From: Burkholderiaceae bacterium
GTDB lineage: Bacteria; Pseudomonadota; Gammaproteobacteria; Burkholderiales; Burkholderiaceae_C
Direction of reading: 5' to 3'
Assembly: GCA_030654805.1 (NCBI GenBank)
Contig: JAURWR010000083.1
Span: 1 to 38,121 of the forward strand
DNA: 38,121 nucleotides
Shown here: one piece after another, positions 2,131 through 23,113 of the stretch
Layout: every line of letters starts with the position of its first letter
Numbering within the stretch: position 1 is the first letter of the stretch
Position numbers and translations under genes: made by a program
Notes under the pieces: generated by a model
Databases searched by the model: none
Told to the model about the DNA's origin: nothing
What the model saw: the letters and a program-made list of their open reading frames with translations, nothing else

Positions 2131-2167
2131 ATATGTGTGCCACGCAACTCCGATGGAGACACGACAC

Positions 2168-7789: not shown

Positions 7790-9814
7790 TCAAAGGTGGT
7801 TCGGCGGGGTGATCCCGAATCGCTTCATCTGTCGATAGATCGTTGCCCGGCACAGGGCCAGTTCGTCGGCGGCCCGCGTCACGTTCCATTTGTGACGCTT
7901 CAGGGCATTCAGCAACCGTGCGGACGAGTCCTCGTTCGTATCCAGCGCGAGCGATGCGGGGCTGTCCACGAAGACCGTTCTGGGCTGGATCACTGGCCGC
8001 ACACGATCGGCCTGCTGTGCGCCGCAGAGTTCGTCGGGAAGATCGGCCAGTGTCACCGGTGCATCGTCGCTCAGCGCGATGGCGAAACGCAAGGTGCTGC
8101 GCAGTTCCCTCACGTTGCCAGGCCAGTGGTGGGCCGTCAACCGGTCGACGATCTCCGCAGACATCGTCGAGCGCGAATGTGATCGTCGAGCCTCGTCCTG
8201 GAAGATTGTCTCGATCAGGTAGCGTTGATCCGCGCGGTCTCGCAGCGCCGGCAGGCTGAGCGTGGCCCCACACAAGCGGTAATACAGGTCTTCCCGGAAG
8301 GTGCCGGCTTCCACCTGGTCGCGCAGGTCGCGGTGGGTGGCGGCGATGACGGTGCAGTTGACCGGGATTGGATGGTCGGCACCCAGCGGCAGCACCTCGT
8401 TTTCTGACAGCACGCGCAGGAAGCGTGTCTGCAGCTGCAAGGGCATGTCGCCGATTTCGTCGAGAAACAGCGATCCGCCTTCGGACTGCAGGATCAAGCC
8501 CTTCATCCCCTTGCTGCGGCCACCGGTGAAGCTGCCGGGCATGTAGCCGAAGAGTTCGCTCTCGATCAGCGATTCAGGTATCGATGCGCAGTTGACCGCC
8601 ACGAAAGGCTTGCGCGCGCGCTTGCTGTAGCCGTGCAGCGCTTTGGCGAACACCTCCTTGCCCGACCCGGTTTCGCCCTGGATCAGGATGTTCACCTTGC
8701 GATCGACCAGGCGCTTGGCCTGCCGGATCAGGTTCTGCATCGTCGGGTCGCTGCCGGCGAGTCGGTCGAGCGCCAGTGGCTCGTCGCGGCCTTCGCTCGT
8801 CGCTGGCAAGGCGGCAGGGGTTCGCGCTTCCGCCTGTGCCGGGAGCGTCGTTCTGACCACTGCGAGGTTCCGGGGCGGAATGACAGTCGCATACTGGCGG
8901 TCTTGCAGGTGAGCGCCGATGCCCGACAGCTCCATCGTGGTGCCACCCTTGGCCAGGCGCGACAACTCGTCCTGTGACGTTTCAAGCAGATCCATGACCG
9001 TCTGGCCGACCAGGTTGTTGCTGGCCCACTGCGGTACGCCCGGGGCTGCGAACTTCTTGCGTGCCCCGGTGTTCGCGCCGACGATGCAGCCGTCCTCGTT
9101 GAAGGCAAGCATGATGTTGCCGGACACCTCGACCAGCCCGCAGACTTGCCCGAGCCTCAGGATCCAGTGCTTGTCGAAGTGACGCAGGAAATTGGCGTCC
9201 TCGATCATCTGCCCGTAGATCGACGTGAGGTGAAGCACCAGGTGCTGGCTCTCCTTCGCTTCGGGCGAATGCAGGGCCGACACGTCGAGCACGGCCAGCA
9301 ACTGGCCGTCCGGCGTGAACAGGGGAGCCGAGGTGCAGGTCAGCCCGATGTGCGTGGCGTCGAAGTGTTCGGCCTGATGGCAGGTGATGATTTCCCGCTC
9401 GACAAGGCAGGTGCCCACCCCGCAGGTGCCGGCATGCGCTTCGTTCCAGTCGGCCCCGAGGTACAGCCCAGCCGCCTTGAGCTGCTTCTCGGTGGCCGGG
9501 TTGCCGATGTAGTCGACGGTGATGCCGTCGCTGTCGGTCAGCAGCATCATGTATCCGAGGTCGGCGACACGGCGGTACATGTCTTCCATGCCGGCGCGAG
9601 CGACGCGAATGAAACCCTCCAGCCGTTGCTGGTGCTCGCGTACACGCTCGAACGGCAGGATGTTTGCCGCCTTGGGCTTGGACGGGTCCAGCCCGTGCTG
9701 CTTGATGCAGCGGGTCCACGACTTGTGGATCAGGGCATCAGCACCCCGGGCGTGAGCGAAATTCGATCCAACGTTGATGACGTTGTCGATGTGCTCTATT
9801 TGCGCGTTGCTCAT
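7790..9814 (-). CDS. acoR: Sigma-54-dependent activator, AcoR family
   Basis: This enhancer-binding protein activates sigma-54 promoters, classically those of acetoin catabolism. It has 674 residues: an N-terminal GAF-type sensor region (about 60-230), a linker, an AAA+ domain with Walker A GETGSGKE at 380-387 and Walker B LFLDEIGD, and a C-terminal Fis-type helix-turn-helix (NVTRAADELALCRATIYRQM). The sigma-54-contacting loop reads GSFTGG (427-432) instead of the canonical GAFTGA. ATG 9814 has GGAG nine bases upstream. It is divergent from the aco cluster, whose regulatory region holds a -24/-12 promoter and two GCGACA-N2-TGTCGC dyads that this protein probably binds. Confidence 0.93.
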   Translation of the reverse strand: MSNAQIEHIDNVINVGSNFAHARGADALIHKSWTRCIKQHGLDPSKPKAANILPFERVREHQQRLEGFIRVARAGMEDMYRRVADLGYMMLLTDSDGITVDYIGNPATEKQLKAAGLYLGADWNEAHAGTCGVGTCLVEREIITCHQAEHFDATHIGLTCTSAPLFTPDGQLLAVLDVSALHSPEAKESQHLVLHLTSIYGQMIEDANFLRHFDKHWILRLGQVCGLVEVSGNIMLAFNEDGCIVGANTGARKKFAAPGVPQWASNNLVGQTVMDLLETSQDELSRLAKGGTTMELSGIGAHLQDRQYATVIPPRNLAVVRTTLPAQAEARTPAALPATSEGRDEPLALDRLAGSDPTMQNLIRQAKRLVDRKVNILIQGETGSGKEVFAKALHGYSKRARKPFVAVNCASIPESLIESELFGYMPGSFTGGRSKGMKGLILQSEGGSLFLDEIGDMPLQLQTRFLRVLSENEVLPLGADHPIPVNCTVIAATHRDLRDQVEAGTFREDLYYRLCGATLSLPALRDRADQRYLIETIFQDEARRSHSRSTMSAEIVDRLTAHHWPGNVRELRSTLRFAIALSDDAPVTLADLPDELCGAQQADRVRPVIQPRTVFVDSPASLALDTNEDSSARLLNALKRHKWNVTRAADELALCRATIYRQMKRFGITPPNHL

Positions 9815-10090
9815 CGGTCGTCTCCTGAAGTCGATCGCTCTGCTGGCGATCTGACGCGTTTAGCGGCCAGTGATGGTGAGTCCGTCTTCGCAGCGTCGCA
9901 AGGGGGCATTTCCCCGTGCTGTAGCGGCAGGATGAGGGTGGCAATCCGGACCTCATTTTTGCAAGCCGCAGATAAAGCGATTCGCGTGCCAAAGCATTGA
10001 TTTCCAGCAACGTGAACCTCGTTGCCTGGTGCGCTCGTGGGATGAGCGCTGTGCAGCCGTGTTTCGCCGCCGCCGAAGGCTGATTTGCAT

Positions 10091-10104
10091 GCGACAACTG
10101 TCGC
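10091..10104. promoter_or_regulatory. Putative AcoR operator 1 (aco)
   Basis: GCGACAACTGTCGC has perfect 6-base arms (GCGACA / TGTCGC) around a 2-base centre, 140 bases upstream of the -24 element. This is a normal upstream-activator distance. The same dyad occurs at 18977-18990. Confidence 0.65.
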
Positions 10105-10124
10105 TTTGAGGACTGTTGAATTTC

Positions 10125-10138
10125 GCGACACCTGTTGC
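10125..10138. promoter_or_regulatory. Putative AcoR operator 2 (aco)
   Basis: GCGACACCTGTTGC matches the dyad GCGACA-N2-TGTCGC with one mismatch. Its centre is 34 bases from that of operator 1 (about three helical turns), which would put both sites on the same DNA face. Confidence 0.6.
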
Positions 10139-10243
10139 GCGCAACAGCGTCCGAGCAGGAGCCACAGCACGCTGAGAGCCAGCTGCCGCTGCCGGTCTGC
10201 TGTGCGGTGGTTTTGGCAGCGTGCGAGCGTGGCATCCCGGTGA

Positions 10244-10258
10244 TGGCACGGTGATTGC
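10244..10258 (+). promoter_or_regulatory. Sigma-54 (-24/-12) promoter of the aco cluster
   Basis: TGGCACGGTGATTGC is a full match to the consensus TGGCAC-N5-TTGC, with invariant GG and GC exactly ten bases apart. Transcription would begin near 10270, leaving about 75 bases of leader to the GTG at 10344. It lies downstream of the two operator dyads. Confidence 0.8.
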
Positions 10259-10343
10259 GCTTTCGATGGGCCTGCGAACAGACAGGAGCGACCCGCGCGA
10301 CACCTCGGGCCAGCGGCAGCCGCCATCAACCTGGAGACAACTC

Positions 10344-10826
10344 GTGAATGCATTGAACGCGATATCGCTCAGCGTCGGCCTGTGGGTCGGCATCTGGTGC
10401 TTCGCCACGCTGGGCTTCCTGGAGCCCCAGGTCATGACCTGGATCACCTTCCTGACCTGGGCCTCGTTTTTTGCGGCCGGTGGCGGCAAGGTCGGCTTGA
10501 CGAAGTCGATCGCCAGCGCGTTTGCCGGCACGTTGATCTCGGCGGCGGTCGTCTGGCTGAACGGCTACCTCGGCGGTGGCGTGCAGGGCTTCGGGCTGCT
10601 GATTTTCAGCGCGCTGCTGGCGCTGCTTGGCTGGTCGTTGTGCCAGCTGTCGAAGATCGATCTGTTCAGCTTCATTCCCGGCGCCTTCATCGGTGCCGCC
10701 TCGTTCTTCGGTGCCGGCGCGCCGCTCGACGCCAAGCTCGGGTGGGTGCTGGTGTCGATCATCTGCGGTGCGGTTATGGGGCTGGTCTCCGAGCGCGTCG
10801 GGCAGTCGATCACCGCCAAGGCCTGA
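10344..10826 (+). CDS. DUF1097 membrane protein
   Basis: This 160-residue integral membrane protein matches the DUF1097 family (E. coli YcdZ type): its N-terminus VNALNAISLSVGLWVG and the repeated hydrophobic segments give about four to five helices. Small residues are abundant (FGAGAP, GGGVQGF), as is common for channels and small transporters. Function is unknown; its position as first gene behind the sigma-54 promoter suggests a role in handling the substrate or product of the aco pathway, which is inference. The frame is open to 10221, but GTG 10344 is preceded by GGAGACAA at 10333-10340 and gives the family N-terminus. Confidence 0.82.
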   Translation: MNALNAISLSVGLWVGIWCFATLGFLEPQVMTWITFLTWASFFAAGGGKVGLTKSIASAFAGTLISAAVVWLNGYLGGGVQGFGLLIFSALLALLGWSLCQLSKIDLFSFIPGAFIGAASFFGAGAPLDAKLGWVLVSIICGAVMGLVSERVGQSITAKA

Positions 10827-10849
10827 AGCGACCGATCGAGAGCTGCACC

Positions 10850-11416
10850 GTGACCCGATTGACGCTCAACGGCATCGCCACCTACACCGAAGGAACGTTG
10901 CCGAGGCCGGGGCAGGAAGCGCCGAAATTCCTGTTGACCACCTCTGCTTTCGAGGACGTCGGGCTCGATCACTTTCCGGGCCGGTGCAAGGTGCTCAACA
11001 TCGTGCCCAGCATCGAACTCCCGAGCTGCCGGCTGTCGTCGCGTCGTCTCGAAGAGGGGCTGCGGTGCATGCCGAACGTGGCGCTGCTGACGATCTCGCG
11101 GGATCTGCCTTTCATCGTGGATTTCGGGCGAGACGACGGCGGTGCGCGGTCACGCAGCGTCACGCTCTCGACGTTTCGCTGTCCATTATTTGCGCGCAGC
11201 TACGGTGTCGACATCGTCAGCGGACCGCTGCGCGGACTGATGGCGCGGGCGGTTCTTGTGCTCGATGCTCGAAACAGGGTGCTGCATGCCGAGCTCGTGC
11301 GCGAACTCAGCGAGGACCCCGATTGTCTCGCCGCGCTGTCCGCAGCCCGCCTGGCGGTCGAGCTCGGCAGTGCGACGGCTGTGTCATCGGCAGATGAAAC
11401 AGCTGTCGCGGTGTGA
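10850..11416 (+). CDS. Tpx-like peroxiredoxin lacking the resolving cysteine
   Basis: This 188-residue protein aligns along its whole length with thiol peroxidase Tpx: an N-terminal hairpin, GRCKVLNIVPSIELPSC, ISRDLPF, VTLSTFRCPLFARSYGV and GPLRGLMARAVLVLD. The peroxidatic cysteine is kept at C60 (C61 in E. coli) and so is the arginine of the LxARAV block. Two hallmark residues are not: the Thr of TxxC is Leu57, and the position of resolving Cys95 is Arg94. Other cysteines (C46, C73, and one in the TFRC segment) might resolve the sulfenate. A poorly conserved tail ends in VSSADETAVAV. It starts at GTG 10850, 23 bases after the DUF1097 gene. It could be a 1-Cys enzyme, a sensor or a non-catalytic relative. 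Confidence 0.8.
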   Translation: MTRLTLNGIATYTEGTLPRPGQEAPKFLLTTSAFEDVGLDHFPGRCKVLNIVPSIELPSCRLSSRRLEEGLRCMPNVALLTISRDLPFIVDFGRDDGGARSRSVTLSTFRCPLFARSYGVDIVSGPLRGLMARAVLVLDARNRVLHAELVRELSEDPDCLAALSAARLAVELGSATAVSSADETAVAV

Positions 11417-11519
11417 CACCTGACAGCACCTGCATTCACGACGACGTGGATGCCACAAACGAAGGTTCAGCGCGGTGATCCGGGCCGTCGACATCGCCCT
11501 GCGCCCACGTCGAATGGCG

Positions 11520-11534
11520 TGGCATGCGGCTTGC
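11520..11534 (+). promoter_or_regulatory. Second sigma-54 (-24/-12) promoter, upstream of acoX
   Basis: TGGCATGCGGCTTGC has GG-N10-GC spacing and an exact TTGC. Initiation would be near 11546, 24 bases before acoX. The 153-base gap before it holds no perfect GCGACA dyad, only a loose TGTCGC...GTGACA pair at 11404-11418, partly inside the Tpx-like gene. Confidence 0.6.
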
Positions 11535-11569
11535 GCCCATGGACGCCAAAGCAACGCAGGAGACAGTGA

Positions 11570-12631
11570 ATGAGTTCAGCCGGGACCGGTGCACAGGATT
11601 GCATCGGCATCATCGCCAACCCGGTGTCGGCACGCGACGTCCGGCGCGTCATCGCGAATGCCAGCGGGCTGCAGATCTCGGAGCGCGTGAACATCGTTCT
11701 GCGGGTTCTCAGCACCGTTCGCAGTCTGGGCATCAAGCGCGTGCTGATGATGCCCGACCGGGGCGGCATCCGGTCGATGCTGCTGCGGCACCTGAAGCGC
11801 GAACACAACCTGCATCACGCGTTTCCGGAGGTCGAGTTCCTCGACATCAACGCGACCTCGACCGTCGACGACACGATCCTCGCCGCGAAGATGATGGGCG
11901 AGGCGGGCGTCCGCGCGATCGTCGTGCTGGGTGGCGATGGCACGCACCGCGCCGTCATCAAGGGCTGCACCTCGGTGCCCATCGCCGGACTGTCGACGGG
12001 CACCAACAACGCCTTCCCCGAGATGCGCGAATCGACGGTCGCTGCGATGGCCGTGGCGCTGTACGCCACAGGCCGGATCGGCGCATCGGAAGCCCTCGCC
12101 GGCAACAAGGTGCTGCATGTCTCGATCAACGACGGCGAGCGGGAGGACATCGCGCTGGTCGATGCGGTGATCTCCACCGACCGCTACGTCGGCTCGCGTG
12201 CGCTGTGGAAGACCGACCACCTCCGCGCCGCGTACCTGACCTTCGCCGACCCGCAGGCGATCGGCTTGTCGGCTCTGGGTGGCTTGCTGCAACCTGTCGG
12301 GCGACGCGAGTCCGGCGGCCTGGTGGTTCACCTCAGCGACGACCCGGCCACCCGAAAAATCGGGCTGCGCGTCCCGATCGCCCCCGGGATGATTCGAGAG
12401 GCCGGCATCGCGGGCTGGGAGCCGATGCCCGCCGGTCGACCGTTCGACGTTGCACTGAGCGCCGGCATCGTCGCGCTCGACGGCGAACGCGAGATGCCTT
12501 TCGGCCCCAACGACCGTGTTCGCATCACCTTGCGCAACAACGTTTTTTCGACCGTGGACGTCGCCCGCTGCATGCAGATCGCTGCACGCGAAGGCTTGTT
12601 CCGCTTCACTTCCCAGACCGACCAGACCTAA
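11570..12631 (+). CDS. acoX: Acetoin catabolism protein AcoX (NAD-kinase fold)
   Basis: This 353-residue cytoplasmic protein is the AcoX found next to acetoin dehydrogenase genes in Cupriavidus and relatives. Its N-terminal part has the ATP-NAD-kinase/diacylglycerol-kinase fold: GIIANPVSARD near the N-terminus, and the nucleotide loop VVLGGDGTHRAV followed by GLSTGTNNAFPE. AcoX is dispensable for the dehydrogenase reaction itself and its substrate is unknown. ATG 11570 has AGGAGAC nine bases upstream. It is separated from acoA by 14 bases, so the two are surely co-transcribed. Confidence 0.93.
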   Translation: MSSAGTGAQDCIGIIANPVSARDVRRVIANASGLQISERVNIVLRVLSTVRSLGIKRVLMMPDRGGIRSMLLRHLKREHNLHHAFPEVEFLDINATSTVDDTILAAKMMGEAGVRAIVVLGGDGTHRAVIKGCTSVPIAGLSTGTNNAFPEMRESTVAAMAVALYATGRIGASEALAGNKVLHVSINDGEREDIALVDAVISTDRYVGSRALWKTDHLRAAYLTFADPQAIGLSALGGLLQPVGRRESGGLVVHLSDDPATRKIGLRVPIAPGMIREAGIAGWEPMPAGRPFDVALSAGIVALDGEREMPFGPNDRVRITLRNNVFSTVDVARCMQIAAREGLFRFTSQTDQT

Positions 12632-12645
12632 AAGGAGACAACGCC

Positions 12646-13632
12646 ATGCCCGCCACCAACCCATTCCCCCTCAGCAGGGACGCCCTGCTCGATTGCTACC
12701 GGATGATGCGCACGATCCGGGATTTCGAGGAGCGCCTGCACGTCGACTTCGCCCGCGGTGACATCCCCGGCTTCGTCCACCTGTACGCCGGCGAAGAGGC
12801 CACTGCGGTCGGCATCATGAGCCACCTCGGCGACGGCGACCGCATCGCCAGCACGCACCGCGGCCACGGGCACTGCATCGCCAAGGGCGTCGACCCCGTC
12901 GCGATGATGAAGGAGATCTACGGCAAGAAGGGCGGCTGTGGCAACGGCAAGGGTGGCTCGATGCACATCGCCGATCTGTCCAAGGGCATGATGGGCGCGA
13001 ACGGCATCCTCGGCGCGGGCGCACCGCTGGTCTGTGGTGCTGCGCTGGCCGCCAAGTTCCGCAAGAAGAACGAGGTCGCGATCAACTTCGTCGGCGATGG
13101 CGCGTCCAACCAGGGCACCTTCCTCGAAAGCCTGAACCTCGCGGCCGTGTGGAATCTGCCCGCGCTGTTCGTCATCGAGAACAACGGCTACGCCGAAGCG
13201 ACCTCGCGTGACTACGCCACCGCAGTGGACAGCTACGTCGACCGTGCTGCCGGCTTCGGCATGCCCGGCATCACCGTCGACGGCACCGATTTCTTCGCCG
13301 TCTACGAAGCCGCCGGCGAAATCATCCGCCGCGCCCGCGAAGGCGGTGGTCCGTCGCTGCTCGAATGCAAGATGGTCCGCTTTTACGGCCACTTCGAGGG
13401 CGATGCGCAGACCTACCGCGCCGCCGGTGAGCTCGACGACATCCGTGCCAACCACGACTGCCTGAAGATTTTCGGCGCCACCGTGACCGGTGCCGGCGTC
13501 ATCGCCGAGTCCGAACTGCGCTCGATCGACGACCAGGTGCTCTCGCTGATCGAGGACGCTGTCAAGCAGGCCAAGGCCGCACCGCTGCCGCCGCCTTCCG
13601 ACCTGCTCACCGACGTCTACGTGTCGTACTGA
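12646..13632 (+). CDS. acoA: Acetoin dehydrogenase E1 component, alpha subunit
   Basis: This is the thiamine-diphosphate-binding alpha chain of the 2-oxo-acid-dehydrogenase-like complex that cleaves acetoin to acetaldehyde and acetyl-CoA. It has 328 residues, the normal AcoA length. The ThDP motif begins GDG (150-152) and runs to ENNGYAEAT. HLYAGEEATAVG and the phosphorylation-loop-like RGHGHCIAKG segment are also typical. ATG 12646 follows AAAGGAGAC at 12631-12639. The partner beta chain is the next gene. Confidence 0.95.
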   Translation: MPATNPFPLSRDALLDCYRMMRTIRDFEERLHVDFARGDIPGFVHLYAGEEATAVGIMSHLGDGDRIASTHRGHGHCIAKGVDPVAMMKEIYGKKGGCGNGKGGSMHIADLSKGMMGANGILGAGAPLVCGAALAAKFRKKNEVAINFVGDGASNQGTFLESLNLAAVWNLPALFVIENNGYAEATSRDYATAVDSYVDRAAGFGMPGITVDGTDFFAVYEAAGEIIRRAREGGGPSLLECKMVRFYGHFEGDAQTYRAAGELDDIRANHDCLKIFGATVTGAGVIAESELRSIDDQVLSLIEDAVKQAKAAPLPPPSDLLTDVYVSY

Positions 13633-13666
13633 ACGCGCGCCCCCGCAAACCTCTAGGAGACTTTCC

Positions 13667-14680
13667 ATGGCCAGAAGAATCAGCCTGAAACAGGCAGTGA
13701 ACGAAGCAATCGATCAGGAGATGACACGCGACCCGATGGTCATCATGTTGGGCGAGGACATCGTCGGCGGCACCGGTGCCGACGGCGAGATGGACGCCTG
13801 GGGCGGCGTACTCGGCGTCACCAAGGGTCTGTACGCCAAGCACGGCGACCGCCTGATGGACACCCCGCTGTCCGAAAGCGCCTACGTCGGCGCCGCCATC
13901 GGCGCAGCCGCCTGCGGCATGCGGCCCATCGCCGAGTTGATGTTCATCGACTTCATGGGCGTGTGCTTCGACCAGATCTTCAACCAGGCGGCGAAGTTCA
14001 AGTACATGTTCGGCGGCAAGGCCGAGACGCCGGTGGTGATCCGTGCGATGGTCGGTGCGGGCTTCCGCGCGGCCGCCCAGCACAGCCAGATGCTGACGCC
14101 GATCTTCACGCACATCCCCGGACTGAAGGTGGTGTGCCCGAGCAATCCGTACGACACCAAGGGCCTGCTGATCCAGTCGATCCGCGACAACGACCCGGTG
14201 ATCTTCTGCGAGCACAAGAACCTCTACGCCATCGAAGGCGAGGTGCCCGAGGGCTCGTACACGATCCCGTTTGGTGAAGCGAACATCGTTCGCGAAGGCA
14301 AGCACTGCACGATCGTGACCTACGGCCTGATGGTGCACCGTTCGCTCGATGCGGCCCTCACGCTTGCCAAGGAAGGCATCGATGTCGAGATCGTCGATCT
14401 GCGCACGCTGTCGCCGCTGGACATCGACACCGTGCTGGAGAGCGTCACCAAGACCGGTCGCCTGGTCTGCGTCGACGAAGCCAGCCCACGCTGCAACATC
14501 GCAACAGACATCTCGGCGCAAGTCGCGATGCACGCCTTCAGCGCGTTGAAGGCGCAGATCGAGATGGTGGCTCCGCCGCATGTGCCGGTGCCGTTCTCGC
14601 CGTCGCTCGAAGACCTCTACATTCCGGGCGCTCCGGCCATTGCCGAAGCCGTTCGCCGCACGATCAAGGGGAAGCACTGA
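13667..14680 (+). CDS. acoB: Acetoin dehydrogenase E1 component, beta subunit
   Basis: This is the beta chain of E1, forming the heterotetramer with AcoA. It has 337 residues. Visible transketolase-type blocks are VIMLGEDIVGGTGADG, DTPLSESAYVGAAIGAA, PIAELMFIDFMG, and the C-terminal domain with EIVDLRTLSPLD. ATG 13667 has AGGAG upstream (13655-13659). The stop TGA shares its last base with the acoC ATG, a tight coupling. The specificity (acetoin rather than pyruvate or a branched-chain 2-oxo acid) is inferred from acoX, acoC architecture and acoR. Confidence 0.95.
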   Translation: MARRISLKQAVNEAIDQEMTRDPMVIMLGEDIVGGTGADGEMDAWGGVLGVTKGLYAKHGDRLMDTPLSESAYVGAAIGAAACGMRPIAELMFIDFMGVCFDQIFNQAAKFKYMFGGKAETPVVIRAMVGAGFRAAAQHSQMLTPIFTHIPGLKVVCPSNPYDTKGLLIQSIRDNDPVIFCEHKNLYAIEGEVPEGSYTIPFGEANIVREGKHCTIVTYGLMVHRSLDAALTLAKEGIDVEIVDLRTLSPLDIDTVLESVTKTGRLVCVDEASPRCNIATDISAQVAMHAFSALKAQIEMVAPPHVPVPFSPSLEDLYIPGAPAIAEAVRRTIKGKH

Positions 14681-15795
14681 TGGCTGGCATCACGCCCATC
14701 GTCATGCCTAAATGGGGCCTGTCGATGAAGGAAGGCACCGTCATGGCATGGCTCGTCGAAGAGGGCACCGAGATCACCGTCGGCATGCCGATCCTGGATG
14801 TCGAGACCGACAAGATCGCCAACGCGGTCGAGGCGGCCGACCCGGGTCTGCTGCGCCGCAAGATCGCCAATGAAGGCGAACTGCTGCCGGTCAAGGCGCT
14901 GCTCGGCGTGATGGGCGGCGACGATGTCAGCGATGCCGATATCGACGCCTACGTGGCGGCCTACGTCATGCCGGTCGTGGGTGACGGCGACGACGAGGAC
15001 ACCGGTCCGAAGACGCAGTGGGCCGATGTCGATGGCCTGCGCATCCGCTACGCGAAGCGCGGTGCGGAGTCCGGCACACCGGTGCTCTTCATCCACGGGT
15101 TCGGTGGGGACCTCGACAACTGGCTGTTCAACATCGATGCCGTCGGCGAGCACTCGCCGGTGGTGGCGCTCGATCTGCCCGGCCACGGCCAATCGACCGC
15201 CAAGCTGCCGGGCACCAGCATCACCGCGCTGGCGGAATTCGTCGACCATTTCATGGCCGCGATCGATCTGCCGAAGGCCCACATCGTCGGTCACTCGATG
15301 GGTGGCGCGGTGGCGTCGCAACTCGCACTGGCGCATCCCGACCGGGTCGCCTCGCTGACGCTGATCGCCAGCGCCGGTCTCGGTGATGAGATCAACGTCG
15401 GTTACACGGGTGGTTTTGCTGCTGCGGGCTCGCGGCGGGATCTGAAGCCGCTGCTCGAACAGCTGTTCAACGACGGATCGCTGGTCAGTCGTCAGATGAT
15501 CGATGACGTGCTGAAGTACAAGCGGCTCGATGGCGTCGACGCGCTGCTGACCGAGCTCAACGCCGGCCTGTTCGACGGTGGCCGCCAGTCCGAGCAACCG
15601 GGTCTGAAGCTCGAATCGACCGGCAAGCCGGTGCTGGTGGTGTGGGGCCGCGAGGACCGCATCGTGCCGGCCAGCCACGCGGGCAATGCGCCAGTCGGGG
15701 CCACCGTCGAGGTTTACGACGGTGCCGGACACATGGTTCAACTTGAGCGCGCAAGCGACGTCAATGCCCTGATCAAGCGGCATGTGGGTGTCTGA
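14680..15795 (+). CDS. acoC: Acetoin dehydrogenase E2: lipoyl domain plus alpha/beta hydrolase
   Basis: This 371-residue protein has the two-part design known from Pseudomonas AcoC. An N-terminal lipoyl domain (residues 1-80) carries the lipoylated lysine K45 in DVETDKIAN. After a short linker rich in Asp and Gly comes an alpha/beta-hydrolase fold (from about 110) with the nucleophile elbow GHSMGG, oxyanion segment HGFGGD and a late catalytic histidine in GAGHMVQLE. There is no peripheral-subunit-binding domain and no classical E2 catalytic domain, so acyl transfer is thought to run on the hydrolase fold. It overlaps acoB by one base. A lipoate-ligase-like gene follows immediately. Confidence 0.95.
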   Translation: MAGITPIVMPKWGLSMKEGTVMAWLVEEGTEITVGMPILDVETDKIANAVEAADPGLLRRKIANEGELLPVKALLGVMGGDDVSDADIDAYVAAYVMPVVGDGDDEDTGPKTQWADVDGLRIRYAKRGAESGTPVLFIHGFGGDLDNWLFNIDAVGEHSPVVALDLPGHGQSTAKLPGTSITALAEFVDHFMAAIDLPKAHIVGHSMGGAVASQLALAHPDRVASLTLIASAGLGDEINVGYTGGFAAAGSRRDLKPLLEQLFNDGSLVSRQMIDDVLKYKRLDGVDALLTELNAGLFDGGRQSEQPGLKLESTGKPVLVVWGREDRIVPASHAGNAPVGATVEVYDGAGHMVQLERASDVNALIKRHVGV

Positions 15796-16531
15796 AAGAC
15801 CGCGCTACGCTCCGATGGCGATCCCATCGGAGCCGCCTCGGCTCGCCTTGCTGATTCATCGCAGTGCGGGGGCGCAACCCCTCGCGATCGAGCAGAACCT
15901 GCTCGACAGTGCGGCGCTGGGCGAGCCGGTGGCGTGCGTGTGGGAGCCGGGTCCATCGCTGGTGGTGCCCAGCACCTACCAGCGCTACGAGCGCTTCCCG
16001 ATGTTGTGCGAACGCTTTGAGCAGAGCGGCTGGCCCGTCTCGGTGCGACGCTCGGGCGGGGGCCTGGTCCCGCAGGATCGCGGGGTGGTGAATATCAGTC
16101 TGGCCTGGCGCACGGAGGCCGACATGGCGACCGGCATGACGCAGGTCTACGAAGCGCTGTGTGGTCTGTTGCAGGACGCCGTCGAGCCGTTCGACATCGA
16201 CCTGAACCCGCAGGCCGTCCATGGGTCTTTCTGCGATGGGCGGTTCAATCTGGCGATGAACGGTCGCAAGGTCGCCGGCACGGCGCAGTACTGGCAGCGA
16301 CTCAGCAAGACCGAGCATGTCGTGCTGGCGCATGCCTGCCTGATGGTTTGTGCCGATCTCCAGTTGCTGACGCAATGCGCCAACGAGTTCGAAGGTCAGC
16401 TCGGCAGCGACAAGACCTACGACCAGGACGTCATCGCCAATCTTCTGGGCGATGCACCCACCGCGTTCACGACGACGTCGGTGCTGCTGTCGCTGCGCGA
16501 CACGGTGCGCGAACGCGCAGTGCTCTGCTGA
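15782..16531 (+). CDS. Lipoate-protein ligase A family protein
   Basis: This 249-residue protein belongs to the biotin/lipoate A/B ligase fold. The lipoate-binding block RRSGGGLVPQDRGVVNISL and the catalytic-lysine block NGRKVAGTAQYWQR are both present. It lacks an obvious C-terminal accessory domain. It overlaps acoC by 14 bases if ATG 15782 is used; ATG 15815 would give a shorter N-terminus that fits the family equally well, and neither has a strong Shine-Dalgarno. Its place directly behind the E2 gene suggests it attaches lipoate or octanoate to AcoC lysine 45. It could instead be an amidotransferase or a relative with altered acyl specificity. Confidence 0.85.
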   Translation: MWVSERPRYAPMAIPSEPPRLALLIHRSAGAQPLAIEQNLLDSAALGEPVACVWEPGPSLVVPSTYQRYERFPMLCERFEQSGWPVSVRRSGGGLVPQDRGVVNISLAWRTEADMATGMTQVYEALCGLLQDAVEPFDIDLNPQAVHGSFCDGRFNLAMNGRKVAGTAQYWQRLSKTEHVVLAHACLMVCADLQLLTQCANEFEGQLGSDKTYDQDVIANLLGDAPTAFTTTSVLLSLRDTVRERAVLC

Positions 16532-16574
16532 AACCGCAGCGCCAGATTCGACGCCAGCGCGGTTGCGGCTCTCG

Positions 16575-17009
16575 TCAGGGTGCGGGTGGCTGGGTCGACA
16601 AGAACTGGATGTAAGCCACCAGTTCCCAGATCTCCTCGGGTTTGAAACCCTTGCCCCAGGCGGGCATCACGTCGGCGGCGCGCCGACCTTCGGTGATGAC
16701 CTGGAAGGTTCCTTGCACACTGAAATCCTTGTTGCCCTTGAACGGCGGCGTCTTGCCGCCCGACCCTTCGGCCCCGTGACAGTAGGCGGCACAGTTGGCA
16801 TTGAACCGCTTCTTGCCGGCCGCGATCCGCTCCGGATCTGTGAGATCAAAGGGAGCGCCATCCTTGCTGGCAGACGCAGCCCCGGCTGCGGGAGGTGGCG
16901 CTGGCTCGGACGGAGTCGCCGACGCCGGTGTGAGCACTGCGCTCGATCCGATCAAGAGCACGAGCAGTACCGACGGCAGGGCGTGACTTGAGCGAGACGG
17001 AATCTTCAT
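16575..17009 (-). CDS. Periplasmic c-type cytochrome with CX3CH haem motif
   Basis: This 144-residue exported cytochrome starts with a signal peptide (residues 1 to about 37, ending ASA) and an Ala/Pro-rich linker. The haem site reads CAAYCHG, so three residues lie between the cysteines instead of two. A likely axial methionine is in DVMPAWGKG, and the C-terminal helix is IWELVAYIQFLS. This layout is that of small class I cytochromes serving PQQ alcohol dehydrogenases. It lies downstream of a PQQ dehydrogenase on the same strand but behind a strong terminator, so it is at least partly separately expressed. The start at 17009 gives the signal peptide; the frame is open to 17102. No clear Shine-Dalgarno is seen. 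Confidence 0.85.
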   Translation of the reverse strand: MKIPSRSSHALPSVLLVLLIGSSAVLTPASATPSEPAPPPAAGAASASKDGAPFDLTDPERIAAGKKRFNANCAAYCHGAEGSGGKTPPFKGNKDFSVQGTFQVITEGRRAADVMPAWGKGFKPEEIWELVAYIQFLSTQPPAP

Positions 17010-17043
17010 CGAACGGAACTCATGAAAGCAAAAAATTAAAAAA

Positions 17044-17068
17044 GGGAGGCCGAACGAATCGGCCTCCC
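17044..17068 (-). terminator. Rho-independent terminator of PQQ dehydrogenase 1
   Basis: A perfect 10-bp stem (GGGAGGCCGA / TCGGCCTCCC) with a 5-base loop is followed on the minus strand by a T-rich run (17028-17043). It lies 56 bases beyond the stop of the dehydrogenase gene and before the cytochrome gene. Confidence 0.85.
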
Positions 17069-17123
17069 CAAATGTACGACCCTCACGTCGCACAGATGAC
17101 AAACCAGATGAATGGAGAAAGGA

Positions 17124-18806
17124 TCAGTCCAGCGTGAACACCATCAAGGCTGCGCCGCCCGGCAGGGTCCGAATGTCGGGGAACGCGCCGGTCAGGAAGC
17201 CCGGTGCGTGCGAGCCGAGACCCGTCGGGATCGCGATGTACTGCTTGCCCTTGACCGAGTAGCTGATCGGGCCGCCGCGTGCGCCCGAACCGGCGTTGAA
17301 TTTCCACAGCTCCTTGCCGTTGTCGGCGTCGAAGGCGTACAGATTGCCGCGCATGTCGCCGGTGACGACCAGGCCGCCTGCGGTGGCGAGCACCGAGCTC
17401 AGTGGTGGCAGATCGAAGCGAACCTTCCAGGCTTCCTTCCCGGTGAGCGGGTCGAACGCCGCGAGCCAGCCATCGGCCTTCTTGCCCGGAGGATTGACCA
17501 GCGTGATCTCCGACAGACCCAGCGACAGGCCGCCGACGCCCGGCACCGGACCCTGCTTGGCGCTGGTCACGGTGTTGCAGACCTCCATGCCATGCGAGTA
17601 CCAGAGCTTGGTGGTCGGGTTGTAGGCGCCGTGGTTCCAGCTGCGTCCACCCAGCAGGTTGGGGCAGTGCAGCTTTTGCTTGTCGGTCTCGGGGAAGACC
17701 GGATCAATCGGCAGACCGGTCTTCGGGTCGACGCCCTTGGCCCAGTTCATGTTCTCGGTCATCTGCCAGGCGTTCTTCATCGCCCCGTTGTCCTTGTCCA
17801 TGACGTAGACGAAGCCGTTCTTGTTCAGGTGAACGAGAGCCAGCTTGCCCTTGCCATCGGGGACCTGCAGCGCTTCGTACGAAGCGTCGAAGTCCCACGA
17901 GTCGTTTGGTACTTCCTGGCGGTGCCATTTGACGGCGCCGGTCTTCGGATCAAGCGCCAGCAGGGTGGCCGTGTACAGGTTGTCACCCATGCGCGACTCG
18001 CGGTTGAAGTCGGGGGCCGCGTTGCTGGTGCCGATGTAGATGGTGTCGGTGGTCGGGTCGTAGGTGCCGGGCAACCACGCCGATCCGCCGCCAACCTTGC
18101 GGCTGTCGCCGGGCCAGCTCTTCTGGTCGTCGCGTGGCACTTCGAAGGTCCAGGTGCGCGCGCCGGTGTCGGCGTTCACCGCGAAGATCTTGCCGATGAT
18201 CGGCTGGTCACCGCCGGTGGTGCCGCCGAACAGCGTGTCGCCGGCCAGTTGAGGCGGCGACGAGAACGTCGCGCCGTACTCGGCCTTCTGGTCGGTCAAC
18301 TGGGTGGACCACAGTTCCTTGCCGGTCTTCTGGTCGAGGGCGACCATGCGGCCGTCCAGCGTGCCCAGGTACACCTTGCCACGGCCCACGGTCACGCCGC
18401 GGCTGGCCGATTGGTAGAACATTTCCTTGACGATCGGATCGAGCTTGGCGGTGTAGCGCCACAGCGTCTTGCCGGTCGCGGCGTCGAGCGCGAACACGTT
18501 GTTGTCGGCCGCGATCGTGTACATCACGCCGTCGATCACGATGGGGGTGGCCTGCAGGCCGTGCGTGATGACGCCCGGCTGGTGGATCCAGGCCACGTGC
18601 ATGTTCTTCACGTTGGTCTTGTTGATCTGGGCCAGCGGGCTGTAGCGCCAGGCGTTGTAGCTGCGGTGGTACTGCGGCCAGTTGTTCGGATCGTCATAGC
18701 CCGGGCCCGTGCCAGCGGCACGCGTGGTGCCGACTGAACCCAGGCTCAGTACCGCACAGGTGATCAACGTGAGCAGGGGAAGTCTGCAGTACGTCGTTTG
18801 ATTCAT
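17124..18806 (-). CDS. PQQ-dependent alcohol dehydrogenase 1, no vicinal cysteine pair
   Basis: This 560-residue periplasmic quinoprotein has the eight-bladed propeller of methanol/ethanol dehydrogenases. It has a signal peptide ending near RAA (residue 31), the blade repeats of the LDAATGKTLW type, and GGRSWNHGAYNP. The predicted catalytic base is D305 in SWDFD; D307 two residues later is the position that binds a lanthanide in XoxF and PedH and is Ala or Ser in calcium enzymes. Where most relatives have adjacent cysteines followed by D-x-V-N-R-G, this one reads FYQSASRG (130-137), so the vicinal disulfide is absent. ATG 18806 has GGAGAC upstream. A minus-strand -24/-12 promoter sits 70-84 bases before it. 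Likely substrates are alcohols or diols feeding the aco pathway; this is inference. Confidence 0.93.
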   Translation of the reverse strand: MNQTTYCRLPLLTLITCAVLSLGSVGTTRAAGTGPGYDDPNNWPQYHRSYNAWRYSPLAQINKTNVKNMHVAWIHQPGVITHGLQATPIVIDGVMYTIAADNNVFALDAATGKTLWRYTAKLDPIVKEMFYQSASRGVTVGRGKVYLGTLDGRMVALDQKTGKELWSTQLTDQKAEYGATFSSPPQLAGDTLFGGTTGGDQPIIGKIFAVNADTGARTWTFEVPRDDQKSWPGDSRKVGGGSAWLPGTYDPTTDTIYIGTSNAAPDFNRESRMGDNLYTATLLALDPKTGAVKWHRQEVPNDSWDFDASYEALQVPDGKGKLALVHLNKNGFVYVMDKDNGAMKNAWQMTENMNWAKGVDPKTGLPIDPVFPETDKQKLHCPNLLGGRSWNHGAYNPTTKLWYSHGMEVCNTVTSAKQGPVPGVGGLSLGLSEITLVNPPGKKADGWLAAFDPLTGKEAWKVRFDLPPLSSVLATAGGLVVTGDMRGNLYAFDADNGKELWKFNAGSGARGGPISYSVKGKQYIAIPTGLGSHAPGFLTGAFPDIRTLPGGAALMVFTLD

Positions 18807-18875
18807 TGCCGTCTCCTTCAGGTTGTTTTGTCGCGGACGCGCACAGCGTGTGGTCGGTCCCGCATCGCCTCTAGC

Positions 18876-18890
18876 GCAGCATTCATGCCA
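18876..18890 (-). promoter_or_regulatory. Sigma-54 promoter of PQQ dehydrogenase 1
   Basis: Read on the minus strand the site is TGGCATGAATGCTGC, with GG-N10-GC spacing and one deviation (CTGC for TTGC). Transcription would start near 18864, about 58 bases before the ATG at 18806. Confidence 0.6.
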
Positions 18891-18952
18891 TCGGTTAATG
18901 CGCCTCAGACCCCCGAAATCACAGGGGTTACCACGGGTGAAGCGGTTTCATT

Positions 18953-18990
18953 TGTCGCCCGCGACACATCAGTCGCGCGACAGGTGTCGC
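18953..18990. promoter_or_regulatory. Putative AcoR operator cluster between dehydrogenase and porin
   Basis: The core 18977-18990 is GCGACAGGTGTCGC, the same 6+2+6 dyad as at 10091-10104. Two further half-sites, TGTCGC (18953-18958) and GCGACA (18961-18966), and a GTCGC at 18972-18976 lie just to its left. The cluster is equidistant from the two divergent -24/-12 promoters. Confidence 0.62.
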
Positions 18991-19069: not shown

Positions 19070-19084
19070 TGGCATGGATGGTGC
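19070..19084 (+). promoter_or_regulatory. Sigma-54 promoter of the porin gene
   Basis: TGGCATGGATGGTGC shows GG-N10-GC spacing with GTGC in place of TTGC. Initiation would be near 19096, about 90 bases before the porin ATG. Confidence 0.55.
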
Positions 19085-19187
19085 GGACAGGTGCCGCCGA
19101 GATCACTCGAAAACGGGTGTCTTGGCTATGGCGAACACCGCCCGGGTGTTGCGCACAACAAATTCAACCCAATGAGAAGGAGACAAC

Positions 19188-20330
19188 ATGGGTCACCCAT
19201 TCTTCAACCGCACGCCAGCGGCCGCCGGTCGGCTACTCGTGCTTGCAGGGTTCATGGCAAGCGCCGGTCTGGCCTCTGCGCAATCCAGCGTGCAGGTGTT
19301 CGGCATCATCGACGTCGGCGTCTTGGGGCAGAACAACACTGCCGGCAGTAAAAAGGGCAACACACGCCTCGAAACCAGCGGGTTGCGCCAGAGCGTCTGG
19401 GGCCTGAAGGGCACCGAAGATCTGGGTGGCGGCCTGAAGGCGTTCTTCAACCTCGAGTCGCACTTCGACACCGACAACGGCAAGCTCCACGGCACGGGTG
19501 ACGCAGACCAGAGCGGCACGCGCCTCTTCCGACGGCAAGCCAACGTCGGCCTGGCCGGCGACTGGGGCACGGTGATCCTGGGTCGCCAGTACGGCCCGGC
19601 GCTGCTGGCGCACATCGGCACCGAGCCGCGCGCCTTCAAGGAGCAGTTCTCGAACCTGTACGCCTGGGCCTACAACCAGCTGGACGCCTTCGCTGGCGGG
19701 GGTGCCGCGGGTTCCACCAACGACGTGGGCATCTTCATGAGCAACGCGGTCCAGTACCGCAACACCTTCGGTCCGGTGACCCTCGGCGTGCTGTACGCGT
19801 TCGGCGAGGAGTCCAAGAAGATCTCGCACGGCAACACCTTCGCGGTCGGTGCCACCTACAACGGTCCGGTCACGCTCTCGGGCTCGTACCAGGTCATGAA
19901 GGACAAGGCCACCGGCGAAGACATCATCGAGCACTACGGCCTGGGCGCCGCAGTTCCTTTTGGTGACTTCACCTTCAAGCTCAGCTGGCTGCGCGGCGAG
20001 AACTCCGGCGCCGATGGCGTCGAAACGTCCAAGGTCGACGGCATCAGCGGCGGTGTGGACTGGAAGTGGAGTCCGTCGAACAGCGCCACCCTGGCCTATT
20101 ACGACAACAAGGACAAGAACCACAGCAGCAACCACACGAAGAACATCATCATCAGCAACGACCTGTTCCTGTCGAAGCGCACGACGCTCTACACGCAGGT
20201 GGCTTTTGTTGACGCAGGCAAGGGTGCCACGGGTATCGCTGCGTACAAGACCAGCATCGTTGCCGATGCGAGCTTCCTGGCGAACAAGACGACCACCTTC
20301 CTGAACATCGGTATCAACCACACGTTCTGA
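19188..20330 (+). CDS. Outer-membrane porin, Burkholderiales type
   Basis: This 380-residue beta-barrel porin has a signal peptide ending ASAQ (about residue 32), the N-terminal strand SSVQVFGIIDVGV, the GLRQSVWGLKGTEDLGGGLKAFFNLE block typical of Gram-negative general porins of this order, and a C-terminal strand ending in phenylalanine (NIGINHTF), needed for Bam-dependent assembly. Strands alternate with Gly/Asp-rich loops throughout. ATG 19188 follows AAGGAGACAAC. The gene lies between the two PQQ dehydrogenases and is closed by a terminator, so it appears to be a separate unit co-regulated with dehydrogenase 1. It probably admits the small polar substrate. Confidence 0.93.
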   Translation: MGHPFFNRTPAAAGRLLVLAGFMASAGLASAQSSVQVFGIIDVGVLGQNNTAGSKKGNTRLETSGLRQSVWGLKGTEDLGGGLKAFFNLESHFDTDNGKLHGTGDADQSGTRLFRRQANVGLAGDWGTVILGRQYGPALLAHIGTEPRAFKEQFSNLYAWAYNQLDAFAGGGAAGSTNDVGIFMSNAVQYRNTFGPVTLGVLYAFGEESKKISHGNTFAVGATYNGPVTLSGSYQVMKDKATGEDIIEHYGLGAAVPFGDFTFKLSWLRGENSGADGVETSKVDGISGGVDWKWSPSNSATLAYYDNKDKNHSSNHTKNIIISNDLFLSKRTTLYTQVAFVDAGKGATGIAAYKTSIVADASFLANKTTTFLNIGINHTF

Positions 20331-20485: not shown

Positions 20486-22240
20486 ATGATTTCAATTCAT
20501 CGCCCCGCCGCCTTGCGGCTGCGTCCGCTCGTGGCCTGCATCGGACTCGGCCTGATGCTCACCTCGGTCTGTCGGGCTGAAGACCCGGAGCCACCACTCG
20601 GCGTCAACGTGCTCGAGAACACCTTCAAGTGGCGTCCGAACTACGTCAGCGACGACATGCTGCTGCACGCAGACAAGGACGCCAACAACTGGCTGCACTA
20701 CGGCAAGGATTACCAGAACACCCGCTTCAGCGCGCTCACGCAGATCACCACCGACAACGTGCGCAAGCTCGTGCCGAAGTGGAACCTGTCGTTCGGCGTC
20801 AACGAGGCGCAGGACAGCCAGACCACGGTGATCAATGGCCGCGTGTTCGTGACGGCCAGCCAGAACAAGGTGTTCGCGCTGGACGGCGTCACCGGCAAGA
20901 TGCTGTGGAAGTACGAGCGCTCGCTGCCGGGCGACCTCGGCCCCAAGCTGTGCTGCGATGCGGTGAACCGCGGTGTCGCGCTCTACAAGGACATGGTCTT
21001 CATGGCCACCCTCGACACCCATGTCGTCGCGCTGAACAGCTCGACCGGCGCGGTGGTGTGGGAAAAGAAGATGGGCGACTACAAGTCGGGCGAGATCTAC
21101 ACCTCGATGCCACTGGTCGCCAAGGGCATGGTCATCGTCGGCAACTCCGGTGGTGACGTCGGCGGCAACGTCGGGCGCATCACCGCGCTGAACCCGGCGA
21201 ACGGCGAAGTGATCTGGGAAACCAAGACGCGGCCGACCAGCGCCGACCATCCGCAGGCCAAGACCTGGGCGAACGATTCGTGGAAGACCGGTGGATCGTC
21301 GGCGTGGCTGACCGGCACCTACGACGCGAAGACCGACACCGTGCTGTGGGGCGTGGGGAACCCGACGCCCGACTTCGACCCGAGCGTGCGCAAGGGCGAC
21401 AACCTGTACAGCAACTCGACGCTCGCGCTCGATGCCAGCACCGGCAAGATCAAGTACCACTTCCAGTACACACCGAACGATTCGTGGGACTACGACGGCA
21501 ACAACGAAGTCATCCTGGTCGACGACGAAAAGGGTCGCAAGGTCTGGGTGCACGGTGACCGCAACGGCCACCTGTATTCGATCGACCGGACCAATGGCAA
21601 GTGCAACTGGGTGGTGCCGATCGCCCGCGTCAACTGGGTCACCGGCTTCGGCGACAACTGCCGTCCGATCGTCAACCCGGACAAGGTGCCGCGCTACGAC
21701 AAGATCGTGACCGACATCGCGCCGATTCTGGACGGTGGCAAGGAATGGCACCCGGCTGCCTACAGCCCGCGGACCAAGCTGGTCTACATCCCGTTCATCG
21801 ACAGCTCGATGGACGTCCAGGCCAAGAAGACCGAGTGGAAGCATGGCGAGTGGTTCCTGTCGTCGCGCGTGCTGAAGGCCAATCCGTACACCGGTGGCGT
21901 GAAGGCCTTCAATGCGACCACCGGCGAGCAGGTGTGGACGCGTCCGCAGAGCACGCCAGCGACCAGCGGCTTGCTGGCGACCGCCGGCAAGCTGGTGTTC
22001 TCGGGCGATGCCGAGGGCTGGTTCAGCGCGATGAAGGACGACACCGGCGAAGAGATGTGGCGCTTCAACGTCGGCTCCGGCATCCACGGCAACCCGACGA
22101 CCTTCACGGCCGACGGCAAGCAGTACGTGGCGATCGTCTACGGCCCGGGCGGCGGCAGCCTGTTGCCGCTGATCTACGACGAACTGTTCAAGCGCAACAA
22201 CCGGGGTGGCGGCATGATGGTGTTCGGTCTGTCTGACTGA
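20486..22240 (+). CDS. PQQ-dependent alcohol dehydrogenase 2, predicted lanthanide type
   Basis: This 584-residue periplasmic quinoprotein of the methanol/ethanol family has a signal peptide ending near CRAE, blade repeats such as LDGVTGKMLWKYE and LNPANGEVIWETK, and the vicinal disulfide cysteines C156-C157 in KLCCDAVNRG. The predicted catalytic base is D335 in SWDYDG; D337 is the extra aspartate that marks lanthanide-dependent enzymes (XoxF, PedH). Length and sequence are nearer to ethanol-type enzymes than to methanol dehydrogenase. It starts with AAGGAGAC upstream and is followed by a binding protein, a cytochrome c and a GlcG/HbpS-like gene, an arrangement like xoxF-J-G. I see no sigma-54 site or GCGACA dyad in front of it, so its control may differ from that of enzyme 1. 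Confidence 0.94.
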   Translation: MISIHRPAALRLRPLVACIGLGLMLTSVCRAEDPEPPLGVNVLENTFKWRPNYVSDDMLLHADKDANNWLHYGKDYQNTRFSALTQITTDNVRKLVPKWNLSFGVNEAQDSQTTVINGRVFVTASQNKVFALDGVTGKMLWKYERSLPGDLGPKLCCDAVNRGVALYKDMVFMATLDTHVVALNSSTGAVVWEKKMGDYKSGEIYTSMPLVAKGMVIVGNSGGDVGGNVGRITALNPANGEVIWETKTRPTSADHPQAKTWANDSWKTGGSSAWLTGTYDAKTDTVLWGVGNPTPDFDPSVRKGDNLYSNSTLALDASTGKIKYHFQYTPNDSWDYDGNNEVILVDDEKGRKVWVHGDRNGHLYSIDRTNGKCNWVVPIARVNWVTGFGDNCRPIVNPDKVPRYDKIVTDIAPILDGGKEWHPAAYSPRTKLVYIPFIDSSMDVQAKKTEWKHGEWFLSSRVLKANPYTGGVKAFNATTGEQVWTRPQSTPATSGLLATAGKLVFSGDAEGWFSAMKDDTGEEMWRFNVGSGIHGNPTTFTADGKQYVAIVYGPGGGSLLPLIYDELFKRNNRGGGMMVFGLSD

Positions 22241-22257
22241 TGACCTGATGCATGGAC

Positions 22258-22285
22258 AAGGGGCACGGCGCAGGCTGTGCCCCTT
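22258..22285 (+). terminator. Intergenic hairpin after PQQ dehydrogenase 2
   Basis: AAGGGGCAC (22258-22266) pairs perfectly with GTGCCCCTT (22277-22285) around a 10-base loop. No long T run follows, so it is more likely a partial terminator or mRNA-stabilising stem that lowers expression of the downstream binding-protein and cytochrome genes. Confidence 0.5.
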
Positions 22286-22301
22286 CCACACACGGATTCC
22301 C

Positions 22302-23090: not shown

Positions 23091-23113
23091 CAACCTGTTC
23101 CCATCGATTCGAC

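Follow-up and report, generated by a model that had tools for sequence, protein, structure and literature searches.

Whether a single acetoin regulator can also govern a set of alcohol-oxidizing enzymes encoded several kilobases away is the question raised by the locus described here. It lies on a stretch of 38,121 nucleotides from a Burkholderiaceae bacterium (contig JAURWR010000083.1; hereafter the window), which carries the gene of an AcoR-type sigma-54 activator (acoR) beside acetoin dehydrogenase genes (aco) and, further on, a porin gene between two genes for alcohol dehydrogenases dependent on pyrroloquinoline quinone (PQQ). We call the latter pqqA and pqqB; these are our own names and do not denote PQQ-biosynthesis genes. 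A first-pass annotation had noticed the same palindromic dyad, GCGACA-N2-TGTCGC, in both regions and had proposed that the acoR gene controls both units. The analysis supports this proposal: the AcoR encoded at 7790-9814 probably binds the dyads and co-activates acoR, aco, pqqA, and the porin–pqqB unit, to judge from where the dyads lie and how they are conserved. Binding by AcoR is predicted, and its control of these genes is something that we infer.

Three dyads are present in the window, and all can be compared with G008, a genome of the same genus:

10091..10104, no strand: operator dyad D1, GCGACAACTGTCGC, perfect; G008 has GCGACAGCTGTCGC in this position
10125..10138, no strand: operator dyad D2, GCGACACCTGTTGC, one mismatch; the aligned G008 sequence, GCAACACATGTCGC, has one mismatch in the opposite arm
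18977..18990, no strand: operator dyad D3, GCGACAGGTGTCGC, perfect; within a run of at least 29 bases identical to G008

On rescanning, the coordinates and mismatch counts of all three proved exact. D1 and D2 are 34 bp apart from centre to centre. The dyads are indeed intergenic: D1 and D2 lie between the acoR start at 9814 (minus strand) and the next gene, at about 10344 (plus strand), and D3 lies between the starts of pqqA at 18806 (minus strand) and of the porin gene at 19188 (plus strand). Near D3, inverted half-sites of another geometry (TGTCGC-N2-GCGACA, 18953-18966) are partly kept in G008; this genome also keeps part of a near-palindrome, TGTTGC-GC-ACAACA, found just ahead of the porin start (19147-19160).

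The dyads had also been said to lie upstream of -24/-12 promoters. By an ad hoc weighting of the -24/-12 consensus, four sigma-54-like sites flank them at edge-to-edge gaps of 79-139 bp:

9976..9991, minus strand: sigma-54-like site toward acoR, TGGCACGCGAATCGCT, score 0.93, rank 2 (tied); identical in G008
10244..10259, plus strand: sigma-54-like site toward the DUF1097 gene and aco, TGGCACGGTGATTGCG, score 0.96, rank 1; TGGCATGGCGATTGCA in G008
18875..18890, minus strand: sigma-54-like site toward pqqA, TGGCATGAATGCTGCG, score 0.91, rank 4; identical in G008
19070..19085, plus strand: sigma-54-like site toward the porin gene and pqqB, TGGCATGGATGGTGCG, score 0.87, rank 6; TGGCATAGATGGTGCG in G008 and TGGCACAAATGGTGCG in a second congener, G004

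D1 and D2 sit between divergent sites of this kind, directed at acoR on one side and at the DUF1097–aco genes on the other, and D3 sits between those directed at pqqA and at porin–pqqB. Because both regions have promoters in the two directions, pqqA is included in the predicted regulon, and acoR itself probably belongs to it. Another sigma-54-like site (16702-16717, plus strand, 0.89) is located between the lipoyl-transfer gene and pqqA; its target is not evident.

Within the genus, of which 15 genomes were sampled, AcoR (E 1e-180 or better) was found in three, G000, G004 (93%), and G008 (84%), and pqqB (E 1e-100 or better) in the same three. D1, D2, and both promoters of the acoR–aco region are kept in G008 while adjacent bases differ; in the pqqA–porin region both promoters are kept, together with the identical run that contains D3. 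In G004, the alignment upstream of acoR ends after about 70 bases and a perfect dyad is present all the same. This genome also has a one-mismatch dyad with a promoter before pqqA, and one- and two-mismatch dyads with TGGCACAAATGGTGCG before the porin gene.

A dyad common across the genome without promoter association would have spoken against the proposal, as the annotation pointed out. It is not common: in 3,870,726 bases on 131 contigs there are two perfect copies, both inside the window, against 0.45 (independent bases) to 1.73 (first-order Markov) expected per genome and 0.004-0.017 per window. One-mismatch dyads occur at 18 places, including D2; 12 of the 17 outside the window were examined as loci, and a sigma-54-like site facing outward at a distance of 40-200 bp is present at one of the 12. 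No additional copy with zero or one mismatch exists in the window, in agreement with the annotation, which had seen no other complete dyad by eye. Allowing up to two mismatches gives seven matches there, with 6.28 expected; this is chance level, and loose matching is therefore uninformative.

The relationship between the dyad and AcoR was followed through 399 genomes of the family, 46 of which have an AcoR at E 1e-160 or better. In a tree of 46 AcoR proteins, 14 form one clade (support 100/100). Of these 14, window included, 13 carry a perfect dyad in the 600 bp ahead of acoR; among 71 other AcoR upstream regions examined, one does. The core GACA-N2-TGTC is found within the same distance in 17 of 84 AcoR upstream regions (the 13 plus L020, L026, L052, and L197), against a background over these loci of 0.018 per 600 bp. 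A distant AcoR in G207 (39%) has a perfect dyad upstream as well, so that on the tree the dyad label needs two changes. Among 31 of 80 more distant AcoR loci from genome_contigs, four have a two-mismatch form of the dyad in the roughly 800 bp upstream, and none has a closer match there. We set this aside as a refutation, since it fits the distance of these loci (54% identity or less) and closer relatives have the dyad.

On the PQQ side, pqqA orthologues (E 1e-250 or better) occur in eight of 398 family genomes, seven of which are clade-AcoR genomes, the eighth being G146. All nine genomes seen with both a clade AcoR and pqqA have a perfect dyad upstream of acoR, and eight of them (G000, G008, G066, G074, G181, G185, G258, and G325) have another before pqqA; the ninth is G004, with its one-mismatch form. 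The pqqA-side dyads span three genera. Conservation in relatives with the same genes, which the annotation had proposed to examine, is thus observed on both sides, and the same site stands before aco and PQQ units in other genomes, as a shared regulon would have it. Outside the loci of G329, G386, G188, and G135, the aco genes themselves are close to AcoR throughout the clade (10 of 14 loci).

To see the targets genome by genome, perfect dyads were sought in 15 genomes, the 14 of the clade and G385. There are 34 of them, in 13 genomes (none in G135 or G385), vs. seven for the reversed pattern. By position, 15 are upstream of acoR or aco, nine before pqqA, one before a pqqB-like gene (L183), one between lipoyl-synthase-like and E3-like genes (L185), and two after acoR, before genes for a short-chain dehydrogenase/reductase (SDR) and a zinc alcohol dehydrogenase (G329, G386); G188 has one-mismatch dyads at the same genes. 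In all, 28 of the 34 adjoin acoR/aco, PQQ dehydrogenase, lipoyl-synthase/E3, or alcohol dehydrogenase genes. The dyads at L185 (5232-12499) are near a fragmented acoR-like stretch, a porin gene, and pqqB.

The association with promoters, another point that the annotation had wished to see checked, is also found in the clade genomes. Of the 34 clade dyads, 29 are accompanied by an outward sigma-54-like site that scores at least 0.82 and lies 40-200 bp away, vs. 10 of 40 perfect dyads in family genomes outside the clade and 9.9% of 3000 random positions; at a score of 0.90, the figures are 18 of 34, 6 of 40, and 1.8%. Two G186 sites were set aside in this comparison, one of them scoring 1.00 and the other only 30 bp away from the end of its contig, and the rows compared are related, so that Fisher p values overstate the difference and serve as a guide only. 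The dyad is therefore both upstream of a -24/-12 element and conserved with it, as is expected of an enhancer site.

A third control region may precede the gene for the fused AcoX-like and E1 alpha parts of acetoin dehydrogenase (acoXA):

11372..11409, no strand: two degenerate dyads at the end of the thiol-peroxidase-like gene, GCGACGGCTGTGTC at 11372-11385 (three mismatches) and GAAACAGCTGTCGC at 11396-11409 (two mismatches)
11520..11535, plus strand: sigma-54-like site at the listed start of the acoXA open reading frame, TGGCATGCGGCTTGCG, score 0.93; the same or nearly the same in G004, G008, G074, and G185

The centres of the two dyads are 24 bp apart, about 110 bp before the sigma-54-like site. 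The region is recognizable in five genomes: the window, G008 (both dyads kept), and, in varied form, G004 (three-mismatch forms) and G074 and G185 (a one-mismatch and a three-mismatch dyad). Since the mismatches are so numerous, these dyads have to be judged by conservation and position, which suggest that acoXA probably has a separate promoter within the regulon. The listed start at 11524 falls within the promoter element, and translation therefore probably begins at a later position in the open reading frame.

The genes on either side of the dyads were called from Pfam and NCBIfam matches; the acoX/A/B/C labels come from domains, gene order, and customary nomenclature:

7790..9814, minus strand: AcoR-type sigma-54 activator, 674 amino acids; Pfam Sigma54_activat, AAA lid, HTH_8
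10344..10826, plus strand: DUF1097 protein, Pfam PF06496
10856..11416, plus strand: thiol-peroxidase/redoxin-like protein; 10856 is the start of the NCBIfam match, the frame being open from 10382
11524..13632, plus strand: acoXA, a single open frame with an AcoX-like part and acetoin dehydrogenase E1 alpha; E1_dh at 394-691
13667..14680, plus strand: acoB, E1 beta, from Pfam/NCBIfam
14680..15795, plus strand: acoC, lipoyl domain and alpha/beta hydrolase, by domain match
15782..16531, plus strand: lipoate ligase/transferase-like protein, from Pfam/NCBIfam
17124..18806, minus strand: pqqA, PQQ alcohol dehydrogenase-like, 560 amino acids; Pfam PQQ, and TIGR03075 at 463.8 bits, just below the cut-off of 480.05
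19188..20330, plus strand: porin, Pfam Porin_4
20486..22240, plus strand: pqqB, PQQ alcohol dehydrogenase, 584 amino acids; TIGR03075 above cut-off
22248..23090, plus strand: substrate-binding protein; best match quinoprotein-associated MoxJ-like, below that model's cut-off
23087..23593, plus strand: cytochrome c, by domain match
2135-4752: N6-methylase and BsuBI/PstI-type restriction endonuclease pair, by domain match

AcoR has the make-up of a sigma-54 AAA+ activator with a C-terminal Fis-type helix-turn-helix (PF00158, 2.4e-63; PF25601, 1.1e-15; PF02954, 1.9e-7). At the loop for contact with sigma-54, it has GSFTGG in place of GAFTGA, with the FTG core kept; the pattern shared by the 14 clade members is G[ST]FTGG. 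Across the divergent promoter region, acoR adjoins acoXA, acoB, and acoC. The N-terminal part of acoXA is presumably AcoX; the two parts of this gene are matched by a single stretch in G008 and G004 and by two stretches in G074 and G185. In the gene order, a gene for an HbpS-like protein follows that of cytochrome c. Both PqqA and PqqB have an Asp two residues past the Asp at the presumed catalytic place (SWDFD and SWDYD, respectively), which we take to be a mark of lanthanide-type enzymes. A vicinal Cys pair is present in PqqB and in the aligned structures 1kv9 and 6zcv; PqqA is without it. A PqqE match above cut-off makes PQQ supply plausible in this genome.

From these elements, a mechanism can be proposed. 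AcoR would sense acetoin or a related C4 compound and act from D1/D2 and D3, and probably also from the degenerate pair at 11372-11409. Upon oligomerization, it would open the sigma-54 polymerase by DNA looping at the divergent promoters on either side. This would switch on acoR itself and the DUF1097–peroxidase–acoXABC–lipoyl genes on the one hand, and, on the other, the pqqA quinoprotein and the unit made up of porin, pqqB, substrate-binding protein, and cytochrome c; the extents of these operons are predicted. Alcohols such as 2,3-butanediol, a likely substrate in this scheme, would enter by the porin and be oxidized to acetoin by the periplasmic PQQ dehydrogenases, and cytoplasmic cleavage of acetoin would then yield acetyl-CoA and acetaldehyde.

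That the matching palindromes are due to chance appears very improbable, although copy number by itself would allow it: the genome holds two perfect copies of the reversed control pattern, equal to the dyad's two, and 38 places match this control at up to one mismatch, more than the corresponding dyad counts. Enrichment by genome-wide count was therefore dropped as evidence. Copy number being ordinary and matched by the control, the case is carried by placement and conservation: what is remarkable is that both perfect copies fall within this one window, between genes and separated by 8.9 kb, and that relatives conserve them. The positions are kept across several genera while their flanks diverge, and the 34 dyads against seven reversed ones in the 15 genomes also speak against coincidence. 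A placement probability of 2.7e-8, for two sites falling in two intergenic regions, was computed post hoc and is unused as a test. Along with the control counts, other observations weigh against control of both units by AcoR. G135 (L157) has a clade AcoR and no perfect dyad; its recognition helix reads SRATAYRHM vs. CRAT[IV]YRQM in the other 13 members, and the fork that parts it from the 13 dyad-bearing AcoRs is weakly supported (81/30). G385 has no perfect dyad either; its AcoR does not belong to the clade, though its helix is similar. One of 12 congeners without AcoR at the cut-off, G006, nevertheless has a perfect dyad, next to a weak sigma-54-like site (0.84) and on a 7.4-kb contig where aco and PQQ genes have no match. 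Genes of other kinds adjoin six of the 34 clade dyads: flavin-monooxygenase-like genes at three and genes of the glutamate-cysteine-ligase/YchF type at two; the sixth is unexplained. The first three are unlinked dyads in three genomes of one genus (L187-L189), each with a sigma-54-like site (0.86) before a SnoaL/flavin-monooxygenase-like gene; two of these loci were scanned by Pfam and the third is 92% identical. At the glutamate-cysteine-ligase/YchF-like genes (L180:6161 and L181:6180, one locus scanned), the site is weak (0.84), and the two stretches, from G074 and G185, are 91.6% identical over 12.4 kb, so that conservation of the dyad there says little. A good adjacent sigma-54-like site is missing at five of the 34 dyads, among them those upstream of acoR in one genus (G329, G386, G188; L154, L155, L156) and the one in G198 before the pqqB-like gene. 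Lastly, of the four dyad-flanking sites the one toward the porin gene scores lowest, and the scoring scheme is our own.

The dyads might instead be bound by a sigma-54 activator other than the AcoR of the window, such as its paralogue at C93:50833-52794 or a regulator encoded elsewhere. The "single acoR gene" of the annotation is single within the window; in the genome, there is a second near-full-length AcoR-like match (37% identity), and sigma-54 activators are many, with 17 stretches matching the AcoR query, mostly over the AAA+ part. In a sample of 200 family genomes, moreover, a perfect dyad occurs in 32 of the 192 that are not clade genomes (G186, whose AcoR ends at a contig end and is not in the tree, is counted among these). 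However, seven of the eight clade genomes in this sample have one (39 of the 200 in all), the dyad tracks the AcoR clade and its recognition helix, and the DNA-binding part of the paralogue is 26% identical to that of the window AcoR, with no dyad core within 600 bp upstream of its gene (L097). Non-clade dyads are also less often accompanied by a promoter-like site (the 10 of 40 given above), and at least four of those 10 are upstream of aco-like or acoR-like genes (L192 twice, L193, L197). We consider such an activator unlikely. At L159-L162, AcoR paralogues (about 50% identity) are found near a PQQ dehydrogenase-like gene, with a sigma-54-like site of their own and without the dyad; this is perhaps a sister regulon. 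A different possibility concerns the signal: AcoR would bind both regions but respond to an alcohol or carbonyl product in general, acetoin cleavage being one output of several. This is compatible with co-activation of both units by AcoR and would account for the dyads after acoR before the SDR and zinc alcohol dehydrogenase genes (perfect in G329 and G386, one-mismatch in G188), for the lack of aco genes in the roughly 20-kb loci of these three genomes, and for the unlinked perfect dyad that each has before a flavin-monooxygenase-like gene. The proximity of aco genes to AcoR at 10 clade loci out of 14 speaks against it, however, and we regard a general alcohol or ketone signal as possible but rather doubtful.

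Near other AcoRs, operators have changed symmetrically. GTTACA-N2-TGTAAC is found upstream of AcoR in three marine relatives (L018, L019, L020), and TGAGACACCTGTCTCA in Zoogloea. In G146, which has an aco–pqqA cassette and whose AcoR is diverged (44%), acoXA is preceded by a symmetric variant, GTGACAGGTGTCAC; this variant is without a nearby sigma-54-like site, and nothing comparable precedes pqqA. Such shifts (GTGACAGGTGTCAC, GAGACACCTGTCTC, and GTTACA-N2-TGTAAC) may mean that activator and site co-evolve. It is conceivable, and we propose it tentatively, that one AcoR clade of this family governs a movable regulon with a readable operator of 14-16 bp, which joins periplasmic quinoprotein oxidation, here by two enzymes with the additional Asp, to cytoplasmic acetoin cleavage and its lipoyl supply, and that regulons of this type can be read from sequence because activator and site change together. 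The variants would then form a natural series on the joint change of sigma-54 activators and their sites. For the window, PQQ alcohol dehydrogenases, porin, and cytochrome are tied by sequence evidence to the activator of the acetoin genes, as one predicted switch for the use of 2,3-butanediol or related alcohols, and the short, clear operator lends itself to target prediction genome by genome and to sensor building.

Kruger and Steinbuchel reportedly described in 1992 that AcoR of Cupriavidus necator (Alcaligenes eutrophus) H16 activates the acetoin catabolism genes. Like the AcoR of the window, it is an acetoin-gene activator; a link to PQQ dehydrogenases is absent among the matches listed. 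Likewise, no title or abstract opening among these matches names the dyad or an AcoR–PQQ regulon, subscription literature being mostly outside their scope. The AcoR of Bacillus subtilis likewise activates in response to acetoin and has a palindromic operator region ahead of the target; this region differs in being around 30 bp long, and the available part of the paper mentions no quinoprotein (PMC10018347). A sigma-54 AcoR regulon with its own upstream motif has been reconstructed in Clostridiales, with acoABCL as the only target listed in the part of the source at hand (PMC6615313). According to the accessible sections of another study, Pseudomonas putida KT2440 oxidizes (2S,3S)-2,3-butanediol to acetoin by PedE/PedH, followed by acetoin dehydrogenase; in this bacterium, however, ped (PP2674, PP2679) is far from aco (PP0552-0557) by locus number and is governed by a lanthanide switch, and a role of AcoR is proposed for the aco operon alone (PMC8427195). 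In P. aeruginosa, acetoin and 2,3-butanediol raise the activity of an acoR reporter, an outcome in line with the predicted autoactivation, and no quinoprotein target is mentioned in the portion of the paper available (PMC9249247). Acetoin and butanediol genes are the AcoR targets named in these sources, as far as their available parts go. Sigma-54 activators with dyad operators are of a known kind; a reach of AcoR to PQQ dehydrogenases and this particular operator do not appear among the matches listed. The butanediol-to-acetoin route of P. putida and the acoR response of P. aeruginosa, as the available parts of these reports describe them, give physiological sense to the proposed regulon.

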